This document shows, in pieces, positions 10,997 through 58,353 of a stretch of DNA of 64,000 nucleotides. The translations under genes were made by a program, and so were the position numbers. The stretch lies in the NCBI GenBank assembly GCA_943737045.1, contig CALSFV010000064.1:483481-547480 (forward strand). The letters are read 5' to 3'. The notes below the pieces were generated by a model. That model saw only the letters and a program-made list of their open reading frames with translations, was not told the origin of the DNA and ran no database searches. Source of the DNA: Parapristionchus giblindavisi (lineage: Eukaryota > Nematoda > Chromadorea > Rhabditida > Diplogasteridae). The stretch's first letter is position 1. Every line of letters begins with the position of its first letter.

Positions 10997-12374
10997 AACA
11001 CATTTGTCTTATAATTACGTTTACTGAAAATTTTTTTTGCTCCAATTACCATAACTACTTAGTTATTTTTAGTGTCCTTCTTTCGCGCATGTGTTTATTT
11101 TCATTCTTCGTAATATTTCACTTCACTCAAGTTGCTTTATTATACTTATTCTTTTTGTTAGATTACTTGCAATTCGAAAAATATCAGCTTCATTTTCAGT
11201 ATAATTAAAAGAAAACCCGAGACCGCTTTGGTAAAGTCCTCTAAGAAAGCGAGAGAGCATTTCAAGAGTATTAAATTATCTCGAGATATCACACTTTATC
11301 ATGACTGAACATTATTAATTAATTGACTGTTCTTTTGACTCTTATCAGTTTTATGGACCATTATTTTCCATTTATTCGTTATCAGTCTTTTATTATTATT
11401 AATAATATATTTTGTTTATCTGTTCAAGCAATATTTCATATCTTTATCGTTTAAAATGAAATGTGAAAGTATGTACTCCAATGATAAATCTCCAGCAACT
11501 ACGAGATTCCAATGGGGGGAATTAGCATAATTTTTCAACTTAGTTTTTCAGTAATCAATAAATGACTCTAAAAATTAGGGTTTACAGTACACAAAGAACA
11601 AAGATCAAAGATCAGTCTTAGATTATACAAATTGAATACAATTCTAGAAGATCGCACACTCTAACAAAAATTAGAGGGAATGTAAACAAAAAAACTTTGA
11701 TTATGAAAAAGACACAGAATAATTGAAAGAGTGATTAGAATAACGTTAAAAAGCCTCTGGATTAAGGATCAAATGACATTAAAACATCTACTGCTTGCCA
11801 GAGTTGATGAAATCGTAAACAGAAGTGCGATTGCCACGGTTCATGTTAACCTTAAAATATTTTTATATTTATCATATAATAGTTATTTTCCTCATTTCAT
11901 TAACTACTCACTCGTGAATAGTGTCATTATTAGTATTGTTCGTATACTAGTATTTTGCGCATAAAGAAATGGTCCGCTAGAATTATATTTGTTTGCTCAT
12001 TCATGCCCTATCTTTGTGTATCTAGCTTATCGGTCATTGCTATGTTAGCGATAAAGTGCAATATTTATGTTTTTAAAGAACAAAAGGTCGTCAACGTTCT
12101 CTTCTTAAACGTTTCGCGTCATCACATTGGCAAACATTGCTATATACCAGATTGGTAAAGAACGAGAAATAGTAAGCTATATGAAGTTTGCCATCTTTTA
12201 AAGTAAAACATCTATGGTAGTTAATTTGAAAATCTTAGCTCTCATCATAATCTCAAGTTTCAAAAGGCACAGCAAATGAGCTCGGATTTTTTACTATTAC
12301 TTGCCCACAAGCTTCTTCTTTATGACAATTATCCTTTGGTTTCTTTCTCAAAAGGAAATGTATAAAAAGATTTT
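10997..12374. other. Convergent intergenic region, no supported gene
   Basis: This lies between the 3' ends of a plus-strand and a minus-strand gene. It is AT-rich with a short GATCAAAGATCA patch at about 11600. An alternative last exon of the minus-strand coiled-coil gene may lie near 12320-12345. Nothing else stands out. Confidence 0.5.
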
Positions 12375-13210
12375 TTAATGTACCTGGCTGACACGATTCA
12401 TGATCTCTGCCATCTGTCGTGAGAAATCATTATCCTCAGCGTGATTGGTCTGCATACGCTATAAAGATAGAAGAATTAAAGATCAAACTACAAAGATCAA
12501 ATACTAAATGATTACATCTGTTTTTACTATATTTAGATTGCCTGATAGTGATAAAAGCCCAGAGAAATGTGACCGGAGTTTCTGCCCCGGTCTAGTCATC
12601 GACCAATTCTCATGGGGTTGACCTCGTTAGTAGGCAAGAGCTAAATTATTTTTATAAATATATAAGTTCGTACTTCGTGGAAGCTCGCCCTCCTCCTTGC
12701 GCGTTCCTGCTTCTGCTGTTCGAGAGTCTCCATGAGCTTCTCGTTGTGGGCCTTCAGTCGTTGCTCAACCTGTAGTTTGTAGTTTGAATTTTAATTTGTA
12801 CTTTGATCTTTGAATTATTTATAGGTTATAATTTGATCATCACTCACCTTGTTCATGTAGTCATTGAGATGATCCATCTGGCTGTTCAACTTCTTGATCT
12901 CTGAATAATACAGATCAAACTACAAAGTACAAAATACAAAAAAAATAAAAAGATCAAAGACTAAACTACACACACTCACCCTCAGTCTCTTCAGTGGTCT
13001 CAACTTCCGCGAGCGACTCCATTCCTCTCTGGATGGCGGAAAAGGCAGTATCATTATTCTGCTGTTCTGACAGGGGCTGACTGCAAAGATCAAAGATCAA
13101 ACTACAGAACACAAAGATCACACAACAAAGATCAAAGGTCAAACTACGCACCGTGTACGCATACGTACAATGGGTTGTTCGTCGGCGTTAGTTCCGTTGG
13201 TGGCTGACAT
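12375..13210 (-). CDS. Bublin-like coiled-coil protein
   Basis: Minus-strand exons, read high to low: 13210-13152, 13080-12980, 12900-12848, 12769-12674, 12458-12375. They give 130 residues from MSATNGTNADEQ to NRVSQVH. A helical region starts at about residue 30 (TAFSAIQRGMESLAEVE) and leads into a coiled coil, LNSQMDHLNDYMNKVEQRLK and then AHNEKLMETLEQQKQERARR. The pattern of N, D, L and E positions follows the human bublin (BBLN, former UPF0184) core with INSMLDQINSCLDHLEEKND. Bublin-type proteins organise intermediate filaments and protect lumen shape in nematode tubular epithelia; that role here is inference. The exon 3 acceptor reads CAGAG, with the second AG used to keep frame. The last exon either stops at TAA 12377-12375 or is spliced after 12384 to a short exon near 12340 encoding a KKLVGK-like end. 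Three of the four introns are made largely of GATCTTTG/TAGTTTG-like words. Confidence 0.65.
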
Positions 13211-14348
13211 CTACAAAACCGTTAATTAGGATCAACAACATAGATCGGCATCGAACGGAAATGACGGAACACGAAAATCGATCGATCACAATCGCATAAG
13301 AGAAAAAAGGTGATAATGAGGAATACCAAGAGAGAATATTGATAAGGAGAGATAGGGATTAGAAGAGACAATAAAAGAATATGGAGAGTGAGAGAAATGC
13401 ATATAAATAAAAGAATAAGAATAATCAATCTAATCAATCTGTTGACTGCATTTGAACGAATTTTCATTTAATCCAAAGAATCGTGAGGATGGTAAAAGAA
13501 CAGAGAGAATTGAAAAGTGAACGAAAGAGGAAGAGTGTTTGGGAAGAATTGTTCAAACGGTACAACGATCAACAAAAAAAGTACAAGGAAGGCTTAACAG
13601 GGTCGAGGACACCAAAGCAAACCAGAAAGGGGCCAAGAATGAAAAAAAACGATGAGTGATAATGAATCAAAAGAAGAAGAAGATGATGTTGATAACGATT
13701 CTCTTTGTTTCATTTTCACATAAAATTGATTGATTAAGATCAAAAGGCCATCTAGCACTTTTTATTGTCAAAATGAAATATCAAAAAGACAAATCGATAG
13801 TGCTTAAAGTAGCGAAGTATAAGAAAAAAACAGGGAAAGACTGGGGTAGATATATTAAATTAAAATTCCAATATAGAGTCGACTTAATAGGTGTGCTATC
13901 AATCAGTGATAAAATCAATACACTATAAATAAAACAGAATAGTCATCGGTTTGACCAGACCACGCCCCCTTTCCTCACTCTCTCTCTTTCAATGTAGTCC
14001 TCGGCGTACACCCGACGGGTTTGGTGCGCGATGGAACTGATCTGCGGTGGGCGGGGCTTAGTTCGGTTTTTTTTTCAAGCCATACCAAGTTAGCTAATAA
14101 GTCAAGTCGTCATTACTTAAGTTATAAGTCAAGGATTAAGTTAAGTAATAAGGTCATAAGGAATAAGTTAAGTACAGTTAAGTAAACAAAGTGGAATTAA
14201 GTCATGCTAACGTAAATTAGGTTAAGGGAAGGTAAGTTAACGTTAGTGTTATACGTCATGGTGCATATTACTGTAACACAACCAAGCAGATCACCGATTA
14301 CGGTAGCACCACTCATCTTACATAAAGGATAAGGAAGATGATTATTAG

Positions 14349-14494
14349 CTACCGTAACCCTGTTAGGTGGATCAGATTAAGTACCGATGGTCAGCGTTGA
14401 GAAAAAATGTCGTATTATTCGAGTTACATGATTATGTCTATTGTAGACTACCGTAACCCGATTCGGTGGGTCAGATTAAGTACCGATGGTCAGC
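14349..14494 (+). repeat. Two copies of a ~46-bp direct repeat
   Basis: CTACCGTAACCC, then GTGG(A/G)TCAGATTAAG and TACCGATGGTCAGC, occurs at 14349-14395 and again at 14448-14494. TACCGTAACC-like words recur elsewhere in the window (for example inside 43262-43576 and 59363-59984), so this may be a fragment of a palindromic family. Confidence 0.6.
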
Positions 14495-14789
14495 TTCGGT
14501 AAGTACGATTGGTCAGATTTGAGTAAAATTCTGCGAAGTCATCGTCAATTCTCATCCACCTCACATAGACTCAAAAATACGAAGTAATTCTCAAAAAAAA
14601 ACTGCTGATTTTCTACAAACGTCAATAAACAACACACAACTCAACCTAGCGCGCAACCAGGCACAATGCAGATAACGCGCGCCGCAGGCGCGCTCGACCG
14701 GCTGGTTATCTCATAATATCTCATAATTATCACTTTCTCTCATTCCCAAACCGACCCAAAGAGACTGGTTACAAACGCTCACACATGCA

Positions 14790-14895
14790 AATCGTTGTGG
14801 GAAAGGGAGAGAGAGGGAGGGGAGATGGAGAGAGAAGAAGAGGTAGACGGAGATGTAGGGGAGAGTGAGGGGCAGAGGATGCAGAGGTAGAGGGA
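14790..14895. repeat. Purine-rich (GA) block
   Basis: The plus strand is almost free of C and T over about 100 bp (GGGAGAGAGAGGGAGG type). Open frames across it are composition artefacts. Confidence 0.7.
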
Positions 14896-15119
14896 GTAGA
14901 GAGATCAACGGTCGAAATCTACACGTCAACGATGATGGGTTTGGTGGGATAATCGGCTCGATGGAAACAAAGGACGGGGAATGACTAATCTAAAATAGAA
15001 TACTATATACTTTTGATGAGATGAAGATGATTATTCAAATATTATTGTTTTACAAGGGAATATTTGTACGTCTATTTTCTTTAATATTTTCTTTAACAAA
15101 CTGCAAAAGCTGGTCTACA

Positions 15120-15300
15120 TACCGTACACTATTATTTTATAATTGTCTGTGCGTATTGATCGCTTAAATCACGAATTAATCACTACTCGAAGTTAAGGCA
15201 AATGCGTCCTTTATGGAAATTGGAAATTTTATAGATATCGAGCCCGCAACCATTGATTATCGAATCAATGCACCAAGAGGTCAGCAAAAGTACCACTTTT
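15120..15300 (-). mobile_element. Degenerate SINE copy
   Basis: TACCGTACACTATT and TATTGATCGCTTAAATCACG resemble the element at 1-135. A minus-strand tRNA-like head near 15238-15285 contains CGAGCCCGCAACC. It is diverged and internally deleted. Confidence 0.45.
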
Positions 15301-15949
15301 TTGCATATTACTTGACATTTGAATATGCTAGTCGTTCTCCATCCTTTACCAAACATGCATGAAAGACCAAGAATCGATTCGAAATAATTACAGAATGTGA
15401 CAGATTTGCGATATAAAACATGACAATTTAGAATGGAGTAAATGTTAAATGATTCATTCTTTCTTTCAGTGTTAATCGACTACTTAATGTTACTTACTCA
15501 ACCTTTGCCCCACCCAGTATGAGTAAGACAACAGAACACACCCTACTGAGTAATAGTAAATGAAGTAAGAAATGGGCGGAGACTACGTTGTTTTTCTCCT
15601 GATTTTTGCATAATACTTTCTTCTAAGTTTAACACACTGACAATGATAAGTAGGACTAGATCCACAATTTTGAAGCAGAACATGAATTGTGTTTTATATG
15701 ACACAGACTAGCCCACAAACTATAGTGTTACAGTTTTTTTCTATCACTAAAACTTGTAGTCTATGCCTCATAATTCATGGCTGATCTTAAAATCAGTCAA
15801 AATGTATATTACGATAATCTAAATAAGGAAAGAGTCTTAAAGAAGGGGACCGACGAGATTTGGGCTGCGCTATTGACATGAAGAACGTGGGACATAGGAA
15901 GTGACATTCTGTTCTCTTTTAGATTTGACCGGTTGAACGCGTAGGGTGT

Positions 15950-16220
15950 GTGGCTCAGTGGTTATTAGTCAGCGCTTGTAACCGCGCCACGCGGGTTCGA
16001 TTCCCGTTTGCAATTTTCTATACATTTGTGCATCAATTTCAAAAACTCGCGCCTTTCCCTGGGCATATCAATGAACTTTAAGTCTGAATTACGGTATTCT
16101 GGGGCATCTAAAGTTTCAGAGAAAATTGTTTTTGTATACAAGGAGATGTGATCAATAGTTCTGTTTGGCCAGTTTAGTCACGAAAAAACTCGTGGGTCCC
16201 CTTCTTTAATCACTCCAAAA
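15950..16220 (+). mobile_element. SINE copy with well-kept tRNA-like head
   Basis: The head at about 15951-16012 has an A box (TGGCTCAGTGGTTATTAG) and a B box (GGGTTCGATTCCCG). The T-arm stem pairs GCGGG with CCCGT. The acceptor stem does not pair, so I treat it as SINE-derived and not a tRNA gene. The body continues with ACTCGCGCCTTTCCCTGGGC and ends near CCCCTTCTTTAATCACTCC, as in the 3715-4175 copy but with an internal deletion. Confidence 0.6.
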
Positions 16221-16796
16221 ACGCTTCACAACATATTGTTAGGCGTTCCTACACAAGAATAGAATGAAACAAAGACCTTAAGGGGACATAGCCCAAATGA
16301 ATACATTAAGCAGTGACAAGGACGAATCAGACTGAGAAAGGAACGGAACTGCAAAGACACGAATAAGTAGAATGGAGGACTAAAAAGAGGAGGATGGAAG
16401 GGGAAGAGGAGGGAGGGGAAGGTGAGAGGGTGTGGTCCTATGAGAGATTCTAGCAGAGATAGAGGAACGATAGAAAACTTGATGAGGGAAATAAGAATGA
16501 TTAATCGATAATAAATGAAGCTATAATGTCAGTGATTGAAGAAGGGAATACCTGGAATAATGATGTCGATGAACAAAGAAACAGAATAGGAAGTGATGAG
16601 ATAAAGAGTGAGATATAGAATGAATGAGATTGGATAAGAAACGAACCAAATATCGGATGTAAACCAAAATAAAAGTAGTTAAAATAGTACTACGAATTGA
16701 CTATGGACATGGTTGTCCTTGAGTGAATGAGTGATCAACCATATCATTATCTATAAGAGTCCTCGAGGAACAATGAAGAGATAAGGAGAGGTAGAG

Positions 16797-17310
16797 GGAT
16801 GGGGAGGGAGAGGGAGAGGGAGAGGGAGAGGGAGAGGGAGAGGGAGAGACAAAAAAGTTGAGTGGGAGGATCAGACTGAGTATGGGAGAGACAGTAAAGA
16901 GGACGTAATGATAGAGACTAGAAGAGACAGATTGGTACAGGGAGAGAAGGAAGATGAAGTGGGAGAGAGATGGAGAGGAAGAGGACGAGAGATGGAGAGG
17001 GAGAGGAAGAGAGATGGAGAGGGAGAGGAAGAGAGATGGAGAGGAAGAGGAAGAGAGATGGAGAGGGAGAGGAAGAGAGATGGAGAGGGAGAGGAAGAGA
17101 GATGGAGAGGGAGAAGAAGAGAGATGGAGAGGGAGAGAGAGAAAGTATCAAGATATGAATATAGTCACTGAGAGATTGAGACATAGAGAGTGAGTAAAAA
17201 CGTAGGAGAAAGTTGATGAGTCAATCAATGTGTCATTCTTTCTATAGTGGTGAAGAAGTAGAGGGAGAGGGAGAGGGAAGGATAGAGGGAGAAAAGGAGA
17301 GGCAGAGATT
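16797..17310. repeat. GA-rich minisatellite blocks
   Basis: At 16801-16850 there is a (GGGAGA)n run. At about 16965-17140 a longer unit built from GAGATGGAGAGG and GAGAGGAAGA repeats several times. At 17255-17310 the GAGGGA type resumes. Overlapping open frames in several phases on both strands result from absence of stop codons in this composition. Such purine tracts can form triplex DNA; that is inference. Confidence 0.85.
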
Positions 17311-18069
17311 GATAAAAACGTACTTATTGACGGTACAACAGTAAATCATGAGGAAATGAGTAATATAATCAAAAAACCCCAACTGCAATGTGATTTCCTT
17401 TTGAATTTCACTAAAATATCCATATATGGAAGAAAAATACAATGGTAGTTAATATTTTATGGATAGGAAAGGCAAATATTGTGGACAATTGGATTGGTAC
17501 AGCTGTTGTTTGTATGAGGAGGAAATTGAGAGTAGATCAATATATATATTGATTTCTAGATACTCATATTTATCGGAATAGTAAATATGTCAGCATCAGA
17601 AGTGCTCATGACTCCATATGGGTATGATCTAGCTACAAGTACCTGAGGTATATCAAATACCATCATGGTTTCATTGGTTCCCATGATGACGAAATATCGC
17701 AATGCATATCATGATTTAATTGCACGGTACGTTGGAACGTTTGCTTCTGTGTCTCTGTTAACGATGAACATTTGCGTTAATAAATTAATACTTCACCACG
17801 TTATTCGCTAGCGATTAGAAAACGTATCACAAAAGTGTTATATTTATATAAATATTATAATAACATTGATTGTGAGTTAAATCTGTGTCGAAAGGTTCAA
17901 GGACAGAAGACAATGAGGACGTAATTCTCACAATCCTCTCTTATCCCGAGTTGCGAACACTGCCAATTATACGATTACAATTCAGCAAAAAAACACGAAG
18001 AGAAAATACGGAATAAGAAGAATAGTGCTCTTCAGTGAATCGATAGTTCTCTATTGCATTCTATGTTAG

Positions 18070-18400
18070 TCTACTAGCGCGCTCTCCTTCTACTTCTCCC
18101 TCTCCCCCTCTCCCTTTGTACCTCTCCCTCTCCCTTTTCTCCTTTCAATTTCTCTCAATTCTCATCATTCTCCTCTTCCCTCTTTCTGTCTCTTCCTCTT
18201 CTAACTCTACTTCTCACTTTGGCAATGTTTTCTCTGTCTCGCCCATTTTCATTCTTCAGTTGTTTCTCTCTCTATCACCTTGGATGATGTTTTGTCCTCT
18301 CCCTCACCTTCTTCCTCTCTCTCTCTCTCTCCCTCTTCCCCCCTCTCCCTCTCCCTCTCCTCCCCCTCTCCCTCTCCCCATGCATCTGACTCTCCCTCTC
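18070..18400. repeat. CT-rich block
   Basis: The plus strand is pyrimidine-rich with many CTCCCTCTCCC units, the reverse polarity of the GA blocks at 16.8-17.3 kb and 19.3 kb. No gene is supported. Confidence 0.8.
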
Positions 18401-19314
18401 CCTAACTCCCCATCAGTTCCGTTTCGGTCCGATGATACAGACACACACAAGTGATGGTTGTGAATGAATGAATGGGATAGGTGGTAGGTACGATAGAATA
18501 CGATATGGGAAGTAGTGTAGGCCTTGTGTGAGAGACACGAAGAGTCACACTTAATAGCCCCCCTTTCATTGTTAACAATCAAAGTAAGCATACTGAGTTG
18601 GTCATAAATCATGGAATACACCATACTAAATCAATAGAAGAAGTATGACTTAGGTCGTGCTCCACCACTCTTCAGAAAGACTATGCTGACAGGTATTATG
18701 AGGATAGTAAAGTACGCACAGAGTTGGGTAATATGGGTTTCAGGTTGTGCTGGATAATGGAGAGATTATGCTACTGAAATCATAAAAAGTTTGGTACGTG
18801 AGGTGATGCGATAGAGTAAAGTGTTTTTGAGAATGGATATTATGTGTGACTACTTTATCCATTAATTGCTTGGACAAATTTTGATGAACATCACACAAAC
18901 TCTTCCCTTGCGTATTTTTGAAAGAGCCAACGCAAGCCCGATAACCTTTGATAGTACACAGATTGTTAGGGCGAACTTGGGATACTCCCGAAATCAGGGA
19001 CAGTGGTCCAAAGGAGAGTGTATTAACCAACAAGAAGTACTCTCCTATATGATTATTGTAAACTTTGGAGAACTATTCTGAAATTGTATGCATAGAATAC
19101 AAACACTAGTGGATTAGTCGTGTATATAGTAGGACCATTGTGCAGTTTGAGTGATAGAGTGAGGCGAATACATTGATAGTCTATTCTATCTCTATCGATT
19201 CATTTCCCATATCATTTCTCATTTCCTCTCATATTCACTTACGTTCGACGAGACATCATTGAATACGATAGAGTGCAGACAGGTAGAGACCAGTCAAAAC
19301 ACTGAAATATACAT

Positions 19315-19435
19315 TGGAGAGAGGGAGAAACGGAGAGAGAAGGGAAAAGAGAGGGAGAGAGAGAGAGGTCAGAGGGTGCGAGAGGGAGAGAGAGAAGGAG
19401 AGAGAGAGAGAGAGGGAGAGGTGAAGGGGATAGAG
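19315..19435. repeat. GA-rich block
   Basis: A run of GAGAGGGAGAAACGG and GAGAGAGAGGGAG type units in the plus strand. Low-complexity repeat with no gene. Confidence 0.75.
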
Positions 19436-20573
19436 GAGCACAATCACTACATGTTCATCAACACAAAAGAGTCTGCCGACAGACTCATAAAACAATATTA
19501 TTATGTATACATATTACATACAGATAATAGGAAACGGGATAGGAATTCGTGGGATAAGCTATTATTGTGATACATTCGTAGTATTTCAGGCATTACAGGC
19601 ATATTTTTGTCACTTTCTAAAAGAAATCATCAATAAAAAAATTTAATCCTAAATCAAAAACCCTTTTATAACAGTGGAATCACTGCCAAGTTAAAACGCG
19701 TTCTCCATAAGAGTGGCGGGGGCATGGCACAATGTTTCAAAATCATCCTAGGTGACTCATATTTTATGGTTGGAGTCCCTAGGGGACGTATACACTTCAG
19801 TCAAAAAATTGACCCAAATTATCGATTTTTGATCTACAAAAAGTCGAAAAATCAAAGTGTGATTTCCATGGCATGTTACATACCATTCGATAGAGGATCC
19901 AAAGTTATATAAGAATACCAAATTACATGAATTTTCATAACTCCATGTTCGAGAAATATCCGATTTTCCGAATTTTGACCAGATTTATTTGTTTTAATCT
20001 CGTGGCTTACTATGTTACCGTTATTTCCAGGGACTGGATTTTTGATATGTTATGTAAAAATGAATGGGCTATCCGAATATAACACTTATTTGGACCCGCT
20101 GTATGCCAGGCATAGTGATATCGCCAGTCATAGTGATCAGTTTTAACGCCCTAACGTCGACGCAGGTTCGAATCCAGGTCCCGGCCGAAATTTTTGCAAA
20201 TTTTTATTCGGCTCAAATTTGACTTTAAATTATACTTTCATGTGTTTTACCTTGTTTTCATTAATTTAATGCACGAAATATCCATCAACATTATCAGAAA
20301 TAACAAAAAATCGTATAACTGATATAGTACCGGCAAAAAGTCATGGGCCGGGCGAAAATAACGGTTTTTCGACAGTTACACTTCTTTAAGATGTAATATT
20401 TTCTACTTTCTGATAAAATAAGATCAATCAACACGTGAACTCTTCAAATCTCGGTAATTGAAAAATATTTGAAAAATTGTTTACGAAGATCAAAGATCAA
20501 AGTTGAAAATAAGAAATTTCATCAGTAGAGGCGTTGGGACGAGAGCACTCCGAGGAAAAAAATTTATTACAGA

Positions 20574-21715
20574 TACACTATCGGCAAAAAGTCATGGGAC
20601 GCTTTTTCATTTCTTTTTTCGAATTTTGATTCAGGAAAGCAATCAAGCTGATCTTTTGAGTCAATGTAAGCAGCTCATAAAAGAATACAACCATTGTGTT
20701 GATGTAATTAAATTAGTTCACTGTTGCGTAATGATAACACAATCGAAGTACACTTTTTAAACATATATAGTTCTTTAGTGAAAAATGCTGTTCTTCTGAA
20801 ACATTGTGAGAATGGAGTCCTCCACTAGAGTTGAAAAAATCGGAATGTTTCTGAATCTGATTTCAAGCTCTAGCGGGGATGCAATTTTTTCCCTAAAATT
20901 TAAAACTCTTCTTCTAGATGCGCTAACGACCCATTCTGAATGCCAAAATGATGCTAGAAGCGTGTGATATTTATATACAGATTATAGTAGTCATAGCTCT
21001 TTATGCGCCTTCAGGACATAAACAAAAAATTTTTGGAAGGACGTATTTTAGGGGGGGGGGGGGGCGCCCGTTTCCATTTCGGGAACGAGTTATAAACCGG
21101 TTGGGAGATGGTGTATAGAAACAAAAATTGTATCATTGTTATCAGTATGGGTGTACGGTATTGGGCTACCGTAACCGTCGGGAATCGCGAACTGATTTTT
21201 TTCCGTCGACCCATGTCCCGGGATTCATGGTTGAAAATGGCCGAAGTCGAAAAATTCATGATGACCTGAGATCAAATACTAGTTAGCATTATGTGAACAT
21301 TGAGCCAATTTTCATATTTCTTGATGTTGGCTCATGGTTGATATAATGCTAACTAGTATTTTATCTCCGGCCATCATGCATTTTTTCGACTTCGGCCATT
21401 TTCAACCATGAACCCCATGTCATGGGTCGATAGAAAAAAAATCAGTTCGCGATTCAAGATAGTTCTCCTACTGATAAGAATGATACAACTTTTATTGCAA
21501 TAGGCCATCTCCCAAGATTCATGATTCGTTGCCGAAACGGGCGTTGTCGAAACGGGCGCCCCCCCCCCGTATTTTAGACCCTACCGTTCAGAGGCAGGTA
21601 TTCTAAAATTATGGTTCTTCCGCAGGTAGCAATATATTCATTTCCTTTATTTTGGTTTAGTTCTGATTCCTTTCAGACCCGCAGCAACCGTTCTTCTGAG
21701 GTCTGCTGGATTTCA
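20574..21715 (+). mobile_element. Single arm of the 8039-9466 family (third layer)
   Basis: It starts ACACTATCGGCAAAAAGTCA. It then follows the arm at 8039-8660 through CTGAAACATTGTGAGA, GACCCTACCGTTCAGAGG and TTCCTTTCAGACCCGC, with moderate divergence. It is interrupted by the foldback at 21052-21568, after which the homology resumes at GACCCTACCGTTCAG. Confidence 0.75.
21052..21568. mobile_element. Foldback element with 9-bp target duplication (innermost layer)
   Basis: Inverted arms start with a poly-G run and GGCGCCCGTTTCC and end CGTTGTCGAAACGGGCGCCC. The flanks GTATTTTAG (21043-21051) and GTATTTTAG (21569-21577) are an exact 9-bp direct repeat. Removing the element restores continuous homology to the 8039-9466 family. 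Copy two of the family is at 59363-59984. A 9-bp duplication suggests a Mutator-like non-autonomous element; no transposase is present. Confidence 0.88.
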
Positions 21716-23016
21716 GCGCCTAGGCTTAGACTTAGGCTTTTTCTCATGCAGTGGACTCGTCCCAACGCTTCTACTGATGAAATTTCTTATTTTCAAAGCT
21801 CTGATATATGTTGAAAATGTTCACAAAATTGTTTTATTATATTGCTGAACTTTGGTCTCTGATCTTTGAACTTTGATCTTTGATCTTCGTAAACAATTTT
21901 TCAAACAATTTTCAATTACCGAGATTTGAAGAGTTCAAGTGTTGATTGATCTTATTTTAATAGAAAGTAGAAAATATTGCATCTTAAAGAAGTGGAACTG
22001 TCGAAAAACCGTTATTTTCGAACAGCCCATGACTTTTTACCGATACTATATCAGTTATACGATTTTTTGTTATTTCTGATAATGTTGATGGATATTTCGT
22101 GCAATAAATTAATGAAAACAAGGTAAAACACATGAAAGTATAATTTAAAGTCAAATTTGAGCCGAATAAAAATTTGCAAAAATTTCGTCCGGGACCTGGA
22201 TTCGAACCTGCGTCGGCGTTTGGGCGTTAAAACTGATCACTATGACTGGCGATATCACTATGCCTGGCATACAGCGGGTCCAAATAAGTGTTATATTCGG
22301 ATAGCCCATTCATTTTTACATAACATATCAAAAATCCAGTCCCTGGAAATAACGGTAACATAGTAAGCCACGAGATTAAAACAAATAAATCTGGTCAAAA
22401 TTCGGAAAATCGGATATTTCTCGAACATGGAGTTATGAAAATTCATGAAACTTGGTATTCTTATATAACTTTGGATCCTCTATCGAATGGTATGTAACAT
22501 GCCATGGAAATCACACTTTGATTTTTCGACTTTTGGTAGATCAAAAATCGATAATTTATGTCAATTTTTTGACTGAAGTGTATACGTCCCCTAGGGACTC
22601 TAACCATAAAATATGAGTCAACTAGGATGATTTTGAAACATTGTGCCATTCCCCCACAGCCGCCCCTCCGCGGTAAGGGAGAATGTGTTTTAATCTTGAA
22701 AAAGACTGTCCAATTGTGAAAGAAATTTTTTGATATTGCTAGAGAAAAATGCATACAATTTAGAGGGAATTGTTGAGGAGAACAGAGAAATCGTAGGAGT
22801 ATTATCCAGAGAACGTAGAGTTGTCTTGGGAGAAAATTAAAGAGGAGAGAAAAGGACACATTCGACTCGACGTTTGCTAGTTGAATTAGTGAGTATGCTA
22901 GTTATAGAAAAGATGATTCAAAGCAAAAGGTAAAAGGAAATTCCGTGCAAACCAAGAGATCGGCAAGACCAATTATAATTCAAAAGTAGAGATAAACTGC
23001 GAAGGTGTTATGTAAA

Positions 23017-23641
23017 GTATCGGCCAAAAGTAATTGGATCCTTTTTCAATCGAATTAGCTGGTTTGAAAATTGCAATTTTTATAGTGAAAAGTCCTCTTC
23101 CTCTGAAACATTGTGAGTGAAAAAATAGAAATAGTCGGTCATCATTCAGTAAATTAATCAAACTTCATTCAATCGGGATGCTCTTACATTTCCATTTCAC
23201 GCAATACTTCGTTGATCTCTATTCTGTATTTGCGAAAAGCCAATTTCAAACGTTTTTAGTGACATGATAGTGATAGTGACATACTAACAAATAACGTTTG
23301 ATTCTATAATAACTGTCAGTCAATATATCATTTCTATGTCTTCGACTTTCCCGTGTTGCATCATGTATGGTGCCTTGCCGTCGAGATACAGTACTATATC
23401 ATCGTGGCCTCGCAACAGAAGGTCGCTCTTCATTATTCACGATTGGGGTCAGAACGGACATACAAATCAATGCTGATTATTCTCATTATAGGTATTTTTA
23501 GAGACTAAATCGTATGGAATCACCGTAGTGTAAAGTACCAATGTCATTTATGTTCAGTCTGAAACATATATGAAACATGTGGTTGTGGATCAAAAAGATA
23601 TTAAAAAATGGAAAAGTGTCCCATGACTTTTTGCCGATACC
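23017..23641. mobile_element. Tc1/mariner-type MITE
   Basis: The left end GTATCGGCCAAAAGTAATTG and right end (inverse) GGTATCGGCAAAAAGTCATG are imperfect inverted repeats. Near the left end is CTGAAACATTGTGAG, shared with 8039-9466 and 20574-21715. It is diverged and carries no transposase. Confidence 0.65.
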
Positions 23642-24379
23642 ATAATATGCAAAAGTAGCGAAAAAGAAAAGAATAAGAGGCGATAGAGGGTGAAAGAAGG
23701 AAAAGAGTTTTATTTTATTTTCGAAACATTATATCAGAACATGAGAACATTTAATTGAGTAGCGAGAGATCAAAATAGGAGTGATAGACCAAACAATGAA
23801 AATGAAAGATGATTCAAGAGGGAGAAAGAAGAGGGAAAGGGAGAGGTAGAGCAAAAAAAGGAGAGGTAGAGTGGAAAGGTCCACTGGGCTCCACCCTTCC
23901 GCCAACTCTTAATTCGATATTATGAGTAAGCAGACAAATAGGGGTAAAAATTTCTGGAATGTACTGATACTAAAAATAAGAATATTAATATTTACATTTA
24001 CATTGATTTTTAAATAAGAGATACAGTTCAGTAACCATGGGCTGAACTGTAATTACTTGTAGGGAATTACGGGAAGTGTTTATTTTGAAAACAGACACAA
24101 TTTTCAGGTAATCGACGAAACAAAATTAAGTGAATGTTTACGTGAATTCTATTGGAAATAGAAGGATGATTAGGACTAGTACAAAGTAGATGAGTACCAC
24201 TAATTTCGTTGTTTTCCAATCTCAACGGAAATAATCCGCAATTACTATTTTGATACATTGTTTCTAAATCTAATTTTTTTTGAGATCGGGAATAAGAAAA
24301 AGATAAACATATAATAGATAAATGATAGATGAAGTGTATCATATGATGATAAGAGTGATATGATCCTCTAGAACAATGA

Positions 24380-24740
24380 TTCACTTTCTTTATCTCTCCC
24401 TCTAATTCTTCCCCTCTCTCATTCTTCTGCTTCGACTTCAAGTGGAAAGGACACCCTATCATGCGAGGGATTAGAGAGTGATATGATAGTGGAAGGGCCC
24501 TAGAGGGGGTTGAGAGGGAGAGATTAAGGAGAGGTAGAGGGAGTGGTAGCGGACGAGAGAGAAAGAGGGAAAATGGATAATACGTATTGAACGATCTCAA
24601 AGGGGTAAGGAACACTGTCCGATCTCATTCCATTTCTATCACAAAAAGACGGAAGATATCGATAATTAGGGTAGATGAACGTGGGAGGGAGCGGTTGAGG
24701 GAGAGGGAGAGAGAGAAAAGGGAGAGGGAGAGAATGGAAT
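24380..24740. repeat. GA/CT-rich blocks
   Basis: Pyrimidine-rich sequence at 24390-24430 is followed by purine-rich sequence at 24500-24560 and 24690-24735 (GGGAGAGGGAGAGAGAG type). Open frames here are composition artefacts. Confidence 0.65.
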
Positions 24741-24924
24741 AAAAAGAGATGAATGAATGGTAATGATTCATAATATCGATTCAATCATTACAATGGGAAC
24801 GTCAGTGATTCATAGCAATTTGTCGCTTTCCCTTCTAATTATAACTTTAAAGGGAAAACATTCTTGGTCATAAGTTTCTCAACAGATCTCAAACGTGCAG
24901 ACGAGATATTAAATATTGCGTTAA

Positions 24925-25145
24925 AGGTAAAGGTAAAGTTATCCGGTCAGTCAAGGCACACGAAGTCCTGCGTGAGATGAGTGCTAGGCCAGTGAAAACA
25001 ATTCAGTCCGGATCACCTAATCTCTTCTTCGGATCTACTTTACCGGGCGATGTAGTACCTGACGATTTCTGTTTCGGGCGCACTGGTGGATCGGAGGCGT
25101 GTCACGACCCGGAATCGAACCCAGGGGAGATGGAATACGCGACTT
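24925..25145 (-). repeat. tRNA-like repeat, minus orientation
   Basis: AAAGGTAAAGGTAAAGTTAT leads into a GC-richer stretch ending GACCCGGAATCGAACCCAGG. Its reverse strand is a B-box-like GGGTTCGATTCCGGGTC. It could be a SINE of another family. No closed tRNA cloverleaf was found. Confidence 0.4.
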
Positions 25146-25507
25146 TAATTTTTGTGTGAATTATATTAAAATATGCATATATTGATAAAGACAAAGAGTT
25201 TTGAGGCATGGAAAATTTGCATTAGGCCGATCGATATCTTCAATAATTCATTGTGAGATGGGCGTCGCTTCAGTGTAGTGCAATTCTTCCACCCCTTTAG
25301 ATAAATCATGAATGTGACCTATCGAACAAGGATTCAATTGTACGGTAGTTATGACACAAATGGAACAGAGTTAATCTGTGTGAGTATTGTGAAAGAGACT
25401 GAAAAGAAGAGTTCTACATTTATACCTTCGAGATAAAAAAAGTAAGAGATTGGGGTCAGTATGGAGAGATACTTATTGAATGTATTACTTGCCTAATCTG
25501 TTACATA

Positions 25508-26097
25508 CCGTCAAAACGAAAAAAAGTGAAACATTTTTCAAAAAATTTGAAAATTTTTGACAAAAGTTCACAAGATTCCCTGTTTGAGCATTTTTCACGA
25601 TCTTGATGATGTATTATCTAAGGTTTTTCATTGTGGATGTGTTTGCCCAATACAGTTATGCACGACAAAAGTGAAAAAAATAATCGGGAACGCCCCAAAG
25701 CAGAATTGGTATACTGTAGCATACTGTAGAATCTTACTGTAAAACTGCTGCCATCGAGCTTTTTCGTCTAATAATGGTTAGATATAGCATTACCTGACTT
25801 CCTATAGCGAATTTGCACTGCTTTGATCTTGGCAAAGATCAGGCTGCAAAAGTGGTATACTGTAGAAAATCTTATCGTATACCAGTTTTGCAAAACAGCG
25901 TTCACAGTAATTTATTTCAAAATTATTCTTCACGGGTAAATTAGGCTAGCTCACAGATGCTCAAACACCCTATTATCTAATAAAAAACTATCAACCCCAT
26001 TTAGATATCATGATTCAAAATTTTCAAAATCTTGTGAACTTTTGTCAAAATTATTCAAAAATTTTGACAAATGTTTCACTTTTTTTCGTTTTGACGG
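25508..26097. mobile_element. Palindromic MITE with TA flanks
   Basis: TA|CCGTCAAAACGAAAAAAAG on the left and CTTTTTTTCGTTTTGACGG|TA on the right. Inverted similarity continues inward through GTTCACAAGATT / AATCTTGTGAAC-type words. About 590 bp with no coding capacity. Confidence 0.8.
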
Positions 26098-27869
26098 TAC
26101 GTAGACTGGAACACCAATACGGTATCCAAGGGAAAAAATCCATAGCCATCACTAATTGTTAGAAAACTTTGTTAGTGCAAAATATTATGGATTTCATGAT
26201 GTCTAACTTTGAAATAAAAGAAAATCAAGTGTAACGACGACAACGAACTGTTCAGGATAGAGATAATTATAGCAGAAAGGACGCTCAAAAGAATATGAAA
26301 TATCAATTGATAGCTCCAAAAGAGAGTGAACATGGAATACGGAAGTCTATTGGGTGACTAACCATAGTGGATTAGTGGTTTAGCCCCCACGGAAGGAAAC
26401 CGCTAGACTTTCTGTGCTAATTCTTGCAGGAACAACTGAGTGGGATAGAGGGAGAGGAAAGAGAAATAGAGCGTTAGGTGTTCACCGACTCTCGAAACCA
26501 GTTCAACCCAAGAGTGCACCGAATCGATAATCAATGATTAGTTGTTAGGTTAGAATAACCTTGGTCTTTTCATGCTATTTATCTGTTCTCTGAATATGGA
26601 AGAGTAGGAAGAAATCATTGTCTACCTTTAATGCAATGTTCGGAGTGCACATGAAGTATTCATTTTTGTCAAAGTGATACAGATGATAAACGGATTCAAA
26701 GGAACACACTCGAGCAAATTATACTCTCCGTTCTCACAACGCTCTCTCGTAGACAAAGATAACGAGAGAGCATTGTCAGAGCTGACAAGGAGAGTTTCAA
26801 AGATATCACGTATAGAGACTGTCTCGATGACAAATAAAGTAATGTACGTAGAGTCAAATTACCATGATAAAAGTACTTAAATCAAGTCCAGATCAATCAA
26901 GGTCAGTCCTCGTGTTGCGATAATGCTGAGGCAATACAAGAGATGGGCTTTTTCTCTTTCTTTGCAAACAAAATACTTATCAAAATCATTTCGTGAGACG
27001 ATAAAGTACTGCAATGGTTCATTGTTTTCAGATTTTTTCCAACGTATCTCTCACCTCCTCCAACACAAAACAAATAAGTACCATAGGAAAAAGTATTCGT
27101 CGTTCATTTGCAGTCAATCTATTGTGGAGGCGTCTGAGCCGATTAGTTGGGGCAACTTTGAGATGGAGAGAGGGAGGAATGAGCTAAAACGGTGGCTCAA
27201 GTATAGAGTTGACTCAGGAGCTTAGACAGTCAATGTCTCCCCCTTTTCAACATTTCACCATTCCTACATAAACTGGTCGACCTCACTGACATTTCATAGA
27301 AGAGACAGTGAATATAATTGAATTGTGACGAATATGGAACAGATTGTGAAATGTAATCGAACGGATAATGATCGGTTCAAAAAATAAACTAAGAGAAAAG
27401 AGAAGCAGAGAAAACTCTCCTTGTTTTGCACATATTCTCATCTCTTTTTATTTTCAAAACTTTTTAACACCACATAAGAGGTTAATGAATGCGAGTCTAA
27501 AGAGACAAAATTAATATTTCAAATCGGAGAGTTCGATTTATGTTTTTTTTTTCAGGATTTAAGAAAAACAATCGCATTAAGGGGCATATCAATTGTACTT
27601 TGAAATCACCCTTTGTGGCAATAAATAAAGCACTACTAGAAAGATTGAACGTTGTGAAATACATATTAGCTACATAAATGCTCTACAATTGAATATGGTT
27701 GATATGTGTTCATGGAGAGAACTAATAATATCAATGGACTACCGAAAGAAATATGATAAACTTTGAGCAAGAAATGCATGAAAAAAATAGAGAAGTGATT
27801 GCAATATCTGTCTACCTAACTGTTTCTCGGCAGAGCTCTCTATTCTTTGTATGTCTGACTCTATGTCTC

Positions 27870-28110
27870 TATTTCTCTCTCTCTCTCTCACTCTTTCCAT
27901 ATTTCTATCTCTATCATTCTCTTCCCTCTCTCCCTCTCGACGTATATGATCTCCCTTCTCTTCTTCTCCCGTTGCTCAAAAGAAACGGATGAAAGTGATT
28001 CCGGACTGTGTGTGTTAGTTGAATAGAGAGGGGATAGGGGGGAGAGAGAGAATGATATGGAGAGAAACAGAGAGATGGAGGGAGTATGGGAGGTAGATCA
28101 CGAGAGGTAG
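27870..28110. repeat. CT-rich then GA-rich block
   Basis: Pyrimidine-rich sequence (TTTCTCTCTCTCTCTC) up to about 27965 is followed by purine-rich sequence from about 28020 (GGGGGGAGAGAGAGAATG). The opposite polarities on one strand could fold as an imperfect hairpin. No gene. Confidence 0.6.
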
Positions 28111-28658
28111 AGTGAAACAGAAACGCTATGAATGAATGTGTATATAAACATATAGAATGATGGATAGAGAGGTTGGTCATTATATGTATAATACGTGATA
28201 TACAATGGGTATTGAAGAATAGATAGTTACTAATATTTTTGCATTGAAGTTGAATCCTAATGTAGAAAAGTAATGGTCTTTTCTACATAATGATTGTGCA
28301 CAGACATATCCACTTTACCTTGAAATTGGATAACTACGTCAACGAGTAAATGCACACTGATAAAAAATAAAGTACGTTGAAATGCCGGCCTGGGAACGTA
28401 GCCCTTAGATATAAGACACATTGAACGGTCTGAACACTCGTGTTTTCAAATCGTTGGATGTAAATGTCAGTATTATTACATAGAAGGTTGCAATGGATAA
28501 TAAAATTAATTTGAATAAATCAAAAAATTTAATTAACCTATTATAATTTAGTTAGCATAGTTCATATTCGAAGTCCTTATGAAATAAAATGACGTTCATT
28601 CTCCACTCTCCATTCATACCCTTGTGCCTCGTTCTGAGCGGTCGTCTCTCGTTCCACG

Positions 28659-31600
28659 ATGCCATTATTCGACTTTTTCAAGAAGTAAGTTCGTTCCATA
28701 AGGGGCGGAGCCAAATGACTAATATTATCTGAAACTCTATTGCAGTCGCATCAAAACGAAGAAGAGCGATCGAAGGCATGATAAATCCAATAATAACAAT
28801 GCCGTAGAGAAGTCAACCAGTACTTCCATGCAGAAACCATCGAAACGTTCAGTAAAGGTTACACTTTGGATTAAGCCACGAAACATTTTTGGATTGTTCA
28901 TTGTTCTCCCGTGAAGACATCCTAGACAATACATCGCTCAAAGCGCTTTCACTGTTCGAGAATAAAGACATGAATGAATAGAATTCGCAGTGAACAAGCA
29001 ATAAGCCATGCCCACTTTTGGAGCTTAATCAAACTCATTTAGGAAAGATCGATGAATCAGTCTGTGGCCAGCCAGATCATCGATAAGTCTGGGCCGTCCA
29101 TCACACTTCCAAAGGTTGATTCTAAACAGAGGAAGGAGGTAAGTGGAGTCGCAAGGGGACGAAGTCTAACCTATTCTTCTTTCAGTCAAGGAAGATCGAT
29201 AAGTACCACAAGCCGATCGTTCAGGTATGCAATGATCTCGATTAGTATATCGAAATCCCCATAAATGAATGAGATACCTCTATTAATGGGGAAAAAGGAA
29301 AAATTTCGGAAAATTTTGCAAATGAAGTCGTGAGCATAGTCCTCGCACACTCATCTTTTTGTTTTATAATTATAATTATAATTTATCTACGCCCGAGGCG
29401 CAACAGCAATTGAATGAACAATGGGTGGTAAAATATGATTGACGACTCTCCGGATTCATTGAGAAAGTGATAATTCGACGATATGGGGGTGTTTTCACGT
29501 TTTAAACACAATTGATTTTTGTCACTGGTCTCTTTAGAAAGCCGAGGATGTGCGCACTAAGAAAACAGTCGATCTTCATCTCGAAGAGCTTCACTGGCAT
29601 TCTGGTGGAGTATTCTCGAATGTGTATAGGTGAGACGGAGCTAATATAGCAAGATGGGAGAAGTTTACCATTTTCAGAGGTACAATGACGGCCCCTGAAC
29701 GAATGGAAGTCGCCATCAAGAAGACCTGGCCGAGTAAGCTGGATTATTTATGTTACTGATGTCTGATCTTTGATCTTTGATCTTTGATCTTTCAGAGGAA
29801 TCCGTTCGTTCTGATGAGATGATTATTCTCGCTGCGATGAGACGCGCATCACCTCGTAATATTATCAAGCTGCTCTACATATTCAAGAACACTGCTCCCG
29901 ATGGAACGGTGAGTTGATCTTTGATCTTTGATAACTGATCTTAGCTCTTTAATCTATCGTCCATGAGATTTGATCTTTAATCTATGATACCTAATTTGTA
30001 ATATTTAGGAGTGCGAGGCATTTATCTTTGCATTCATGCCCGAGACACTTGACAAGGTGGGCGGAGTCTACACTACAGTTGTCTTCAGTAGTCTAGCACG
30101 GTCTACTACAATCTACAATGCTCACCTTTAGTCTACCGAAATCTACCGCGTTCATTAAAGGTTATCCGTCGTGGCCTAAATCCAACCGATATCAAGATCT
30201 ACATTTGGCAGCTCTTCAATGGACTCGACTTTCTGGCTGCGGTGGGGCCTCTCCCAGTCGATTTGGCCATTAAATCCGCCCCTTTCAGAATCGCATCGCC
30301 CATCGAGACATCAAACCGATCAATATACTCGTGAATAAAGATACCGGCGAGCTCCAGGTTGATCCTTGATCTTGGACCGTAATAATAGACTCTTTAAGAT
30401 TGGCGACTTTGGATCTGCGAAAGTGATTTCATCTCGTGAGCGCTCGTCTGCTTATCAAGTATACATTTTCTTGATTCCTTAAGACTTAAGCTTAAGGGTG
30501 TATGACCTTAATCCGTTAAGCCCTACCTAATCTTAAGTACTCCCGTAAAGGTTACTCGCTACTATCGTCCTCCTGAGATGCTTCTGGGTTCCAATCACTA
30601 CTCTCATCAAATTGATGTCTGGAGTGCTGGCTGTGTACTGGGAGAAATGATCAAGGGACGTGTACTCTTTAGAGGATCGGTATGAACTTATGACTTAGTA
30701 GACTTAACTTAACTTAACTTAATAGAGTTTGAACATTCTTACATGCCTAAACTTAAGGATTCGGAGAATCAATTCCATCTCATTCAAGCCGCACTTGGTA
30801 CTCCTACAGAAGAAGAACTCAAGGTCATGAGGGTCAAAACGGTACACATGAAATCGATCCCCAAATTGGGTTTACTCGCGGTAAGTCATGGACTTAGTGG
30901 AGACTTAACAGTAAGGTCTCTTAAGTCGCTCCGTCTGCAATCTGAGTACGGAGAGCCGATCAAGCTCACTACGTCTATGGCAGCTGCAGTGGCCCTGCTC
31001 AGGAGAATACTTGTCTACCATCCCGATAAGTGGGTTACTCATGGGTATTATAGAATTAAAACTGTCCGAACAATACAAATTCCGCTGTTTGCCGCGCAAT
31101 ATTCAGACTCCGCCCACTTCTTCGCGCGACATACCATTTTCTCTAGTTTTATCGAATTTTATGGCGTTTCCTCATCATTTCACAGGACTTTCAATAAAAA
31201 TAAAATTATATGCATTGAAAAAACGTTCGAAAAAACCTTCCGAAAATTTGGAGTGCGTTTTTCTCAACGGTGGAGAAGTTTACTATATTCGGCATTTGGC
31301 GCGGTGTGTGCAAAACTTTTGTAATTCTATAATAGTTATGACAAAAGTTAACGCAAGGGTTACCTAACTATTTTTAGGAAAGCACGGGATTTAACAAAGG
31401 CAAATTGAATTCATATTGATCTTTTAGTCGCTACTGTGGCAAGGATCTGCTCGAGGACCCCTTCTTCGAAGACGTTCTCTCGGTAAAGTTTGATCTTTGA
31501 TCTTTGAAGATTGATCTTTGATCTTTGAGCCCACTTGTGTACGCGAGAATGGTCAGAAGACGGTTTTGGAGCGTCAGAGTGATGATACGATGTGTCATCA

Positions 31601-32449
31601 ATGCTTTGAGAAGTCACAGGTAAAATATTGATTGCTTTCTATTATATTAATGAATACAAAAACATTAATGTGTTCATTGATTCAAACTTTACATCAATAA
31701 TATTTCTTAAAATGAAATTTTTTTTGAACTTTAAAATTTGATGGCAGCGTAGCTTCGATGTACAATAAAATATCAATAATATAATCTGTAATATTCTTTC
31801 AGCGTTCATCTCGTGTTAGTCGAATCGCTCCAGCTCCTGTACACGAACCGGTAAGATTTGTTCTTTCATTTCTGATTTTGAATTGAAAACTTTCATTTGA
31901 ATTTGTATTTTCGATTTTAATGTTTGAGATTAATCTTCGATGTCTTCAGGCTCCTATGAAGTTCTCCGTTGAAACCACCACCTGGGGGTAATGATTATAA
32001 TGATTAAAGGATATAAATATCCTTTTCAAAGATCAAAGATGAACTATCAAACACGAGATCATTAACATAGCTCCATCCTATCTTATTGCGTGTAGCGAGA
32101 GATCAAATTATGCATGAGGGCAACGATCAAAGATCAAAGATCAAACTGCAGAACCAACGAAGATGGTGCGGACACGAACATTACTGCGGAAACTGCCGTT
32201 ACGGCCGCTACGCACGAAAAGGTTGGTTCATTTTGTAATATTAATGTATCTAGTGAAAAGCGATGAATTTGTCGATGAAAAGCAGTCAGAGCCGAATATG
32301 TAGAGTCAAAAAGTCTTTGTTACTGCGTTATTAATCTATAATATCTAGGTGAAACCTGAATTTCAATCATTTTAGTAGTAATGGGAAATCAATAATTAGT
32401 TGCTAATTTGTAGAAATCCGCTAGTCAAGAGACTATTACTGCCATCTAA
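28659..32449 (+). CDS. GSK3-like serine/threonine protein kinase, 20 exons
   Basis: Twenty exons join in frame from ATG 28659 to TAA 32449 and give 494 residues. A basic Ser/Asn-rich N-terminus of about 100 residues (starting MPLFDFFK) precedes the kinase domain. Visible motifs, in order: glycine loop [12 protein letters not shown]; lysine VAIKK (about 29715); catalytic loop [13 protein letters not shown] (exon 30289-30357); DFGSAK (30405); activation segment [26 protein letters not shown]; and LGTPTEEEL. The tyrosine equal to GSK3 Tyr216 is kept, as is the Lys of DFGSAK. The NREL stretch that gives GSK3 its priming-phosphate Arg is replaced by RSDEMIIL, so primed-substrate use may differ (inference). 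Nematodes have divergent GSK3 paralogues linked to sperm; this could be one, but the sequence does not prove it. The C-terminal tail is about 80 residues and low in recognisable motifs. Several introns are heptamer-built, and acceptors such as TTAAG, TAAAG and TTGAG are used. Confidence 0.92.

Positions 32450-36290: not shown

Positions 36291-58353
<22,063 letters not shown>

Follow-up and report, generated by a model that had tools for sequence, protein, structure and literature searches.

Several short introns in a stretch of the genome of the nematode Parapristionchus giblindavisi are filled by copies of one short word, and the word varies among introns. The window, i.e., the whole stretch of 64,000 nucleotides that was analysed, corresponds to C64:483481-547480 in an assembly of 251 Mb and 703 contigs. 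The original prediction for this DNA was that such introns are gained or lengthened by local expansion of an oriented, splice-competent word, akin to introners, and that their acceptors arise from the word itself. The question raised by this locus is whether the words create introns or rewrite introns that already existed.

The Kinase Gene and Its Neighbors

The gene with most of these introns, named W here, encodes a GSK3-like protein kinase; its reading frame is recognized by Pfam as Pkinase (6.6e-40) and matches GSK3 alpha in the PDB (2.8e-39), and a single open frame results when W is read with the introns originally named. Its best protein relatives are from Pristionchus, with identities of up to 82% (P. 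entomophagus), 80% (P. fissidentatus) and 79% (P. pacificus) and, in P. mayeri, of 81-83% across 82-89% of the query. Relatives from other genera score next, with identities of 47-54%. Twelve introns (Table 1) were placed by spliced alignment with the P. entomophagus ortholog (P0001, 82% identity) using a script that required GT and AG, applied a donor score and had no acceptor preference other than AG. None of the 12 junctions was directly gapped in this alignment (a nine-protein alignment was also made), the alignment with GSK3 alpha provided a further basis for introns 7 and 8, and the junction of intron 6 was ungapped against GSK3 alpha. The boundaries predicted for introns 2, 4, 7, 8, and 11 proved exact and agree with the P. 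entomophagus alignment.

The bublin-like gene on the opposite strand shows 57% identity with C. elegans bublin and 72% with the P. pacificus protein. The boundary of its intron 1 was identical with three Pristionchus proteins and different with the C. elegans protein. The 12 introns of W and the 5 of this gene have GT/AG ends and restore a conserved protein on removal, as is characteristic of spliceosomal introns, and we infer their splicing from the related proteins. The GNAT-like model, which has a predicted word-containing intron, retrieved no relative at E<=0.001 in a protein search. A CDCA7-like zinc finger recognized by eye in one frame at ~32150, downstream of the kinase, was discarded, as the Pristionchus orthologs have another tail.

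The window contains additional repeats: a satellite with units of ~322 nt that extends from 61324 to its end at 64000 (TRF), a perfect ATA repeat of 55.7 copies at 54626-54792, where several frames are open, and G/A-rich and C/T-rich tandem repeats of 6-28 nt (GGGAGA words) at 16785-18403, with strong strand asymmetry at 16001-18000.

Table 1. Genes and introns of the window (positions in the window; A, B, and C are paralogs of the kinase gene W).
Feature	Position	Strand	Length (nt)	Words	Acceptor	Remarks
GNAT-like gene, predicted intron	2435..2513	+		two GATCTTTG		gene-finder boundaries only
Bublin-like coiled-coil gene (aligned part)	11806..13210	-				5 introns; spliced alignments
Bublin intron 1	13081..13151	-	71	sense GATCTTTG and TAGTTTG	CAG	
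Bublin intron 2	12901..12979	-	79	sense TTTGATC-like	CAG	
Bublin intron 3	12770..12847	-	78	antisense CAAAGATC, CAAACTACAAACTACAG, CAAACTAC	CTACAG	
Bublin intron 4	12459..12673	-	215	sense, close to 3' end		
Bublin intron 5	11851..12383	-	533		AAG	three Pristionchus proteins; C. elegans alignment ends before it
GSK3-like protein kinase gene W (aligned part)	29541..31847	+				12 introns; Pfam, PDB, spliced alignment
W intron 1	29630..29677	+	48	no repeated word	CAG	23-nt tandem repeats in A, B, C
W intron 2	29734..29795	+	62	4x GATCTTT	CAG	TACGGTA/TACAGTA words in paralogs
W intron 3	29909..30008	+	100	GATCTTT	TAG	GATCTTT in every paralog (A 65, B 65, C 127 nt)
W intron 4	30057..30160	+	104	GTCTAC	AAG	paralogs 44-49 nt, CAG
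W intron 5	30242..30288	+	47	no repeated word	CAG	plain in all copies
W intron 6	30358..30398	+	41	decayed GATCTTT	AAG	paralogs: intact GATCTTT, CAG
W intron 7	30459..30550	+	92	CTTAAG	AAG	A, B, C: AAG, TTAAGG-type words
W intron 8	30680..30757	+	78	ACTTA/CTTAA	AAG	AAG in C too
W intron 9	30881..30925	+	45	GACTTAA/CTTAAG	AAG	AAG in C too
W intron 10	31030..31427	+	398	GATCTTTTAG at end, rest non-repetitive	TAG	
W intron 11	31483..31529	+	47	nearly all GATCTTTG	GAG	
W intron 12	31620..31802	+	183	no single word	CAG	

The words named for the kinase introns were all seen on inspection (four copies of GATCTTT, a near-complete GATCTTTG, CTTAA, and GTCTAC), and several introns are each made from one word, the words differing among them (GATCTTTG, CTTAAG, GTCTAC); 4 of the 12 introns (1, 5, 10, and 12) are not built in this way. 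Head-to-tail arrays of short units were detected with TRF at 29764-29792, 30702-30722, 31489-31528, and 13084-13143. In the bublin-like gene the sense orientation originally described holds for introns 1 and 2 and for the 3' end of intron 4, whereas intron 3 carries the words in antisense.

Kinase Paralogs in the Same Genome

Three close paralogs of W are encoded in the same genome, A and B on contig C238 and C on C211. A (C238:331600-334350, + strand) and B (C238:508400-511150, - strand) are near-identical inverted copies located ~177 kb apart. The dS values were 0.01 for A-B, 0.23 for A-C and ~2.4, i.e., saturated, for W-C, and dN across the copies ranged from 0.003 to 0.155; the combination of saturated dS and a dN of 0.07-0.16 between W and its copies indicates purifying selection. 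Junctions in A, B, and C were set by hand and checked by the open frame and the protein alignment, and similarity of A and B to W is lost once intron 8 begins. All comparable intron positions of W are common to the paralogs, 7/7 in A, 7/7 in B, and 9/9 in C, and no pair with an intron present in one copy and absent from another was seen among the kinase copies compared.

The contents of these introns are far less stable than their positions. Intron 1, 48 nt long in W, measures 172, 149, and 291 nt in A, B, and C, respectively, where it holds a 23-nt tandem array, and the difference between A and B, at a dS of 0.01, is exactly one 23-nt unit. Between A and C, at a dS of 0.23, intron 1 differs as above and the GATCTTT intron 3 has 65 vs 127 nt. 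Introns 1 and 2 differ in content between W and the three paralogs, the word class is the same in W and its copies in introns 3, 6, and 7 (8 and 9 in C), with TTAAG-type words and AAG in introns 7, 8, and 9 of both W and C, and intron 4 starts near a GGGCGGAGT-type word in W and paralogs alike. These contents indicate that intron positions persist, that words expand and that at some positions one word is replaced by another, while at other positions the word class is kept past synonymous saturation. Expansion inside existing introns is thus supported, and with it the part of the original prediction that invoked lengthening by local expansion. The other part, gain akin to introners, was not borne out, as all comparable positions are common to all copies, with content either shared or unrelated; the paralog result comes close to contradicting it outright, the comparison being among paralogs and not sister species.

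Another GSK3-like gene of this genome, L033, was spliced to GSK3 alpha and has five introns (four with CAG, one with TAG), none of them visibly word-built. The comparison with W is restricted to introns 5-8, because introns 3 and 4 are run together in the alignment of W with GSK3 alpha; the exact positions of these introns are unused in L033, the nearest intron being 3 residues away and in another phase. The presence of two haplotypes in the assembly was considered, the contigs forming more than one descending series by length, and set aside: chaperonin matches fall in ~10 places without an obvious second set, with two side by side on C227.

Repetitiveness Compared With Chance

Repetitiveness was scored in introns of up to 150 nt as the coverage by 6-mers recurring inside the intron, compared with dinucleotide shuffles (p<0.05; 1000 shuffles per intron in the main intron counts, elsewhere 500 per intron and 100 per control segment). 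Intron 11 of W, for example, reached a coverage of 0.79 vs 0.28 in the shuffled sequences (p=0.006). Beyond the window, 20 kinase loci were considered. The intron counts cover five of them (L031, L037, L042, L043, and L048), resolved by spliced alignment with PDB kinases; apart from L033, which is outside these counts, the other 14 are gene-finder models, some of them poor (for L047, one of the 14, a PDB search was made and its result was not used). Nine chaperonin regions were chosen, four were obtained and three, with CCT genes, were aligned, the fourth (L053, Hsp60-like) being a gene-finder model only. Being nearly equal to those of C, the introns of A and B were not counted.

Short introns scored as repetitive in 5/10 cases in W, 5/6 in C, 4/14 in the five PDB-checked kinases, 2/3 in the bublin-like gene and 2/18 in the three CCT genes; among the control segments, 6/90 from exons (three genes) and 33/300 from random genomic positions did so. 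Taken together, W, the five kinases and the bublin-like gene (11/27) score as repetitive more often than the random segments (Fisher p=0.0002) and, by a narrow margin, more often than the CCT genes (p=0.045). The less biased figures are those of the five kinases and the CCT genes, because W and the bublin-like gene had been picked where words were already seen. Half of the kinase introns (18/36) are minimal, with 41-54 nt.

The 3' Splice Sites

Based on the protein spliced alignment, AAG is the acceptor in five and GAG in one of the 12 introns of W. Among the 51 aligned introns that do not belong to GSK-family genes (window and L031-L056), T occupies position -5 in 48, position -4 is nearly free (A14 G16 T16 C5) and position -3 is T25 C20 A3 G3, TAG being as common as CAG; AAG or GAG acceptors account for 6/51 of these introns and for 3/31 of those in the CCT genes, all three of which were aligned with CCT chains from the PDB. 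Acceptors that are loose at -3/-4 and keep T at -5 mean that several words can supply an acceptor, and the words that reach it (CTTAAG, TTTGAG, CTACAG) do have T at -5. In C. elegans (PMC4889670), the 3' splice site is a highly conserved UUUUCAG/R octamer in which U at -5 is the strongest position after AG. The near-invariant T at -5 is thus a likeness to the site as described there, and the almost free -4, the parity of TAG and CAG and the 6/51 AAG/GAG acceptors set the present introns apart from it.

Whether acceptors derive from the words was examined in introns of up to 200 nt by asking if the acceptor 5-mer recurs in its own intron, against a first-order Markov model of the interior. Observed vs expected values were 3/11 vs 2.1 for W, 2/7 vs 0.9 for C, 3/15 vs 2.7 for the five kinases, 1/3 vs 0.0 for the bublin-like gene and 6/20 vs 2.5 for the CCT genes. 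A recurrence above chance tied to word-built introns was rejected, W being not clearly above expectation and the sets showing no consistent link. The claim that acceptors arise from the motif holds by eye (CTTAAG, TTTGAG, CTACAG) but is not clearly borne out by the recurrence counts of W. Likewise, since T at -5 and AG are the main requirements of these acceptors, splice competence of a word is plausible, but word-derived acceptors are not clearly enriched in the kinase.

Two other features of these alignments were observed. In the tyrosine kinases L031 and L042, each of the 9 introns supported by alignment has a length that is a multiple of 3 (48, 51, 54, 93), and phase 0 introns made up 20/27 and 21/31 in two alignment sets, both features being noticed post hoc.

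Distribution and Orientation of the Words

The exact 15-mer GATCTTTGATCTTTG occurs 23,847 times in the 251 Mb, on both strands (11,830 + 12,017), and its reversed control 1 and 0 times. The density of GATCTTTGATC per 10 kb was 6.4 in the 20 kinase loci, which were chosen by Pfam hit, compared with 3.0 in the window, 2.75 in 20 stretches of 10 kb taken at random and 0 in the four chaperonin loci. GATCTTT or its complement occurs in 2 of the 15 introns counted in the five PDB-checked kinases and in 0/31 of the aligned CCT introns. Among 38 word clusters in the random stretches and the window, 8 are in predicted introns and 18 lie >600 nt from predicted genes, these 18 not being all proven intergenic because the gene finder misses genes.

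With regard to orientation, TTGATTGATT occurs 34 times in sense vs 3 in antisense in the kinase loci, and GATCTTTGATC 16 vs 13. Genome-wide, raw counts 3' of GTAAGT were 741 sense and 400 antisense for TTGATTGATT and 820 and 678 for GATCTTTGATC (array-inflated), and 5' of GTAAGT GATCTTTGATC reached 649 and 223 (raw); several of these counts are too high owing to arrays on C6, C7, and C11 and to a recurring stretch of 28 nt. On contigs C1-C5, GATCTTTG lies by GTAAGT 22 times in sense and 15 in antisense on the intron side, and 4 and 9 times on the exon side; a chance of ~19 each, estimated by hand from the densities, indicates that the exon side is depleted and the intron side not clearly enriched. 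A clear enrichment of GATCTTTG beside GTAAGT and a strong sense bias of this word (16 vs 13; 820 vs 678) were both rejected. The orientation bias is weak for GATCTTTG, which occurs on both strands and also in arrays, and TTGATTGATT is more oriented.

Long arrays in which GATCTTTGATC or its complement adjoins GTAAGT extend over at least C7:50037-98937, with a spacing of 444 bp, and C6:44405-96473. The fixed 28-nt stretch GATCAAAGATCATGCGAGTACGGTAAGT (e.g., C1:3461435-3461462) recurs across many contigs and is transposon-like.

Discussion

Altogether, the introns of this locus are probably the result of a turnover of tandem repeats within old spliceosomal introns, which a permissive 3' splice site would allow. 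Short words dispersed in the genome would expand locally in tandem and would overwrite and stretch the interiors of old introns. Minimal introns may hold little beyond the donor, AG and the T at -5; with a 3' splice site loose at -3/-4, a word that offers T-N-N-A-G near the end could act as acceptor, so that a word array may fill an intron without breaking splicing. The words would grow and shrink by whole units and could be swapped for another at the same intron position, both of which were seen between copies, and the acceptor would be allowed as AAG or GAG, as seen by alignment; the molecular motor might be replication slippage or unequal exchange. The tolerance can be hypothesized to exist because minimal introns need scarcely more than a donor and T-N-N-A-G. 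Some observations speak against this explanation. The word class is kept in five introns between W and C at a dS of ~2.4, where drift alone would erase it, so that ongoing homogenisation or selection is needed. Chaperonin introns are repetitive in only 2/18 cases with GATCTTT in 0/31, for which expression level or selection can be offered as guesses, and the five PDB-checked kinases alone reach 4/14. Finally, the introns of L033 all end in CAG or TAG and none is visibly word-built.

These observations lend themselves to other explanations. Across the lineage, a small dictionary of T-N-N-A-G words compatible with splicing might spread between introns and overwrite their interiors, which would account for a class kept past saturation and an acceptor recycled from the word at a permissive U2AF-type 3' site; this we consider unlikely. 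Similarly improbable is that the words are functional intronic signals under selection gene by gene (splicing enhancers, germline-expression or chromatin marks). The persistence of the word class beyond synonymous saturation in introns 3, 6, 7, 8, and 9, the sense excess of TTGATTGATT in the kinase loci and, in raw counts, 3' of GTAAGT, and the lack of GATCTTT in the 31 chaperonin introns would be consistent with such signals, but introns 1 and 2 tolerated complete replacement of their content at the same positions and GATCTTTG is nearly unoriented in the kinase loci and is found in arrays and outside predicted genes. An origin of the words from transposable elements or satellites that have internal tandem repeats, with remnants carried in introns as passengers, agrees with the fixed 28-nt stretch ending in CATGCGAGTACGGTAAGT that accompanies the word in many of the contigs listed and with the C6 array and the 444-bp-spaced C7 array, which carry it; this is quite unlikely, given that no element flanks were seen by eye beside the word in the aligned introns, that words vary from intron to intron and that unit-wise changes in length fit local expansion.

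An introner-like gain, in which new introns would form when a splice-competent word is inserted into exons or expands from them, is very unlikely. The word runs from the donor to near the acceptor in W intron 11 and in intron 6 of C, and the W intron 5-8 positions unused in L033 imply gain or loss at some older time. Nevertheless, all comparable introns occupy common positions in the four copies, some of these positions holding unrelated content, no presence-absence pair was seen, and the word is dispersed on both strands, in arrays, outside predicted genes and in both orientations after GTAAGT.

Turnover of tandem repeats within old introns also has parallels among known systems. Intronic micro- and minisatellites consist of head-to-tail copies whose number varies between close copies of a gene, the same words occurring outside genes. 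The introns described here share the head-to-tail units, the changes in length by whole units and the repeats outside genes, so that they fit well among intronic tandem repeats. They differ from ordinary cases in that a word can take up the greater part of a minimal intron, that its array may extend as far as the acceptor and that several words alternate among the introns of one gene. Introners, as described in the survey by Gozashti et al. (2022; PMC9860276), resemble them in that sequence is common to introns of the same genome and in some cases extends almost as far as both splice sites; here such similarity was visible by eye in W intron 11 and C intron 6 and not in most others. They are unlike those introners in that positions are shared with paralogs (7/7, 7/7, and 9/9) instead of marking previously uninterrupted sites, units are tandem words of ~4-23 nt and content is replaceable. 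As the survey filtered out low-complexity or microsatellite-like families and these introns hold short tandem words, they are not expected in its list. Intron gain by tandem genomic duplication (PMC4974935) likewise has tandem duplication as a source of intron sequence, but here a short noncoding word is what is repeated, and the copies have their introns at common positions. Among the matches listed from the open-licence literature, none dealt with the word or with introns of this type in Pristionchus.

Four copies of one gene within the same genome thus provide evidence that tandem words can rewrite short introns while the positions of these introns persist. Introns rewritten in this manner could mimic recent intron gain in surveys, and the loose 3' splice site to which the present alignments point would explain why this nematode, which resembles Pristionchus, tolerates the rewriting.
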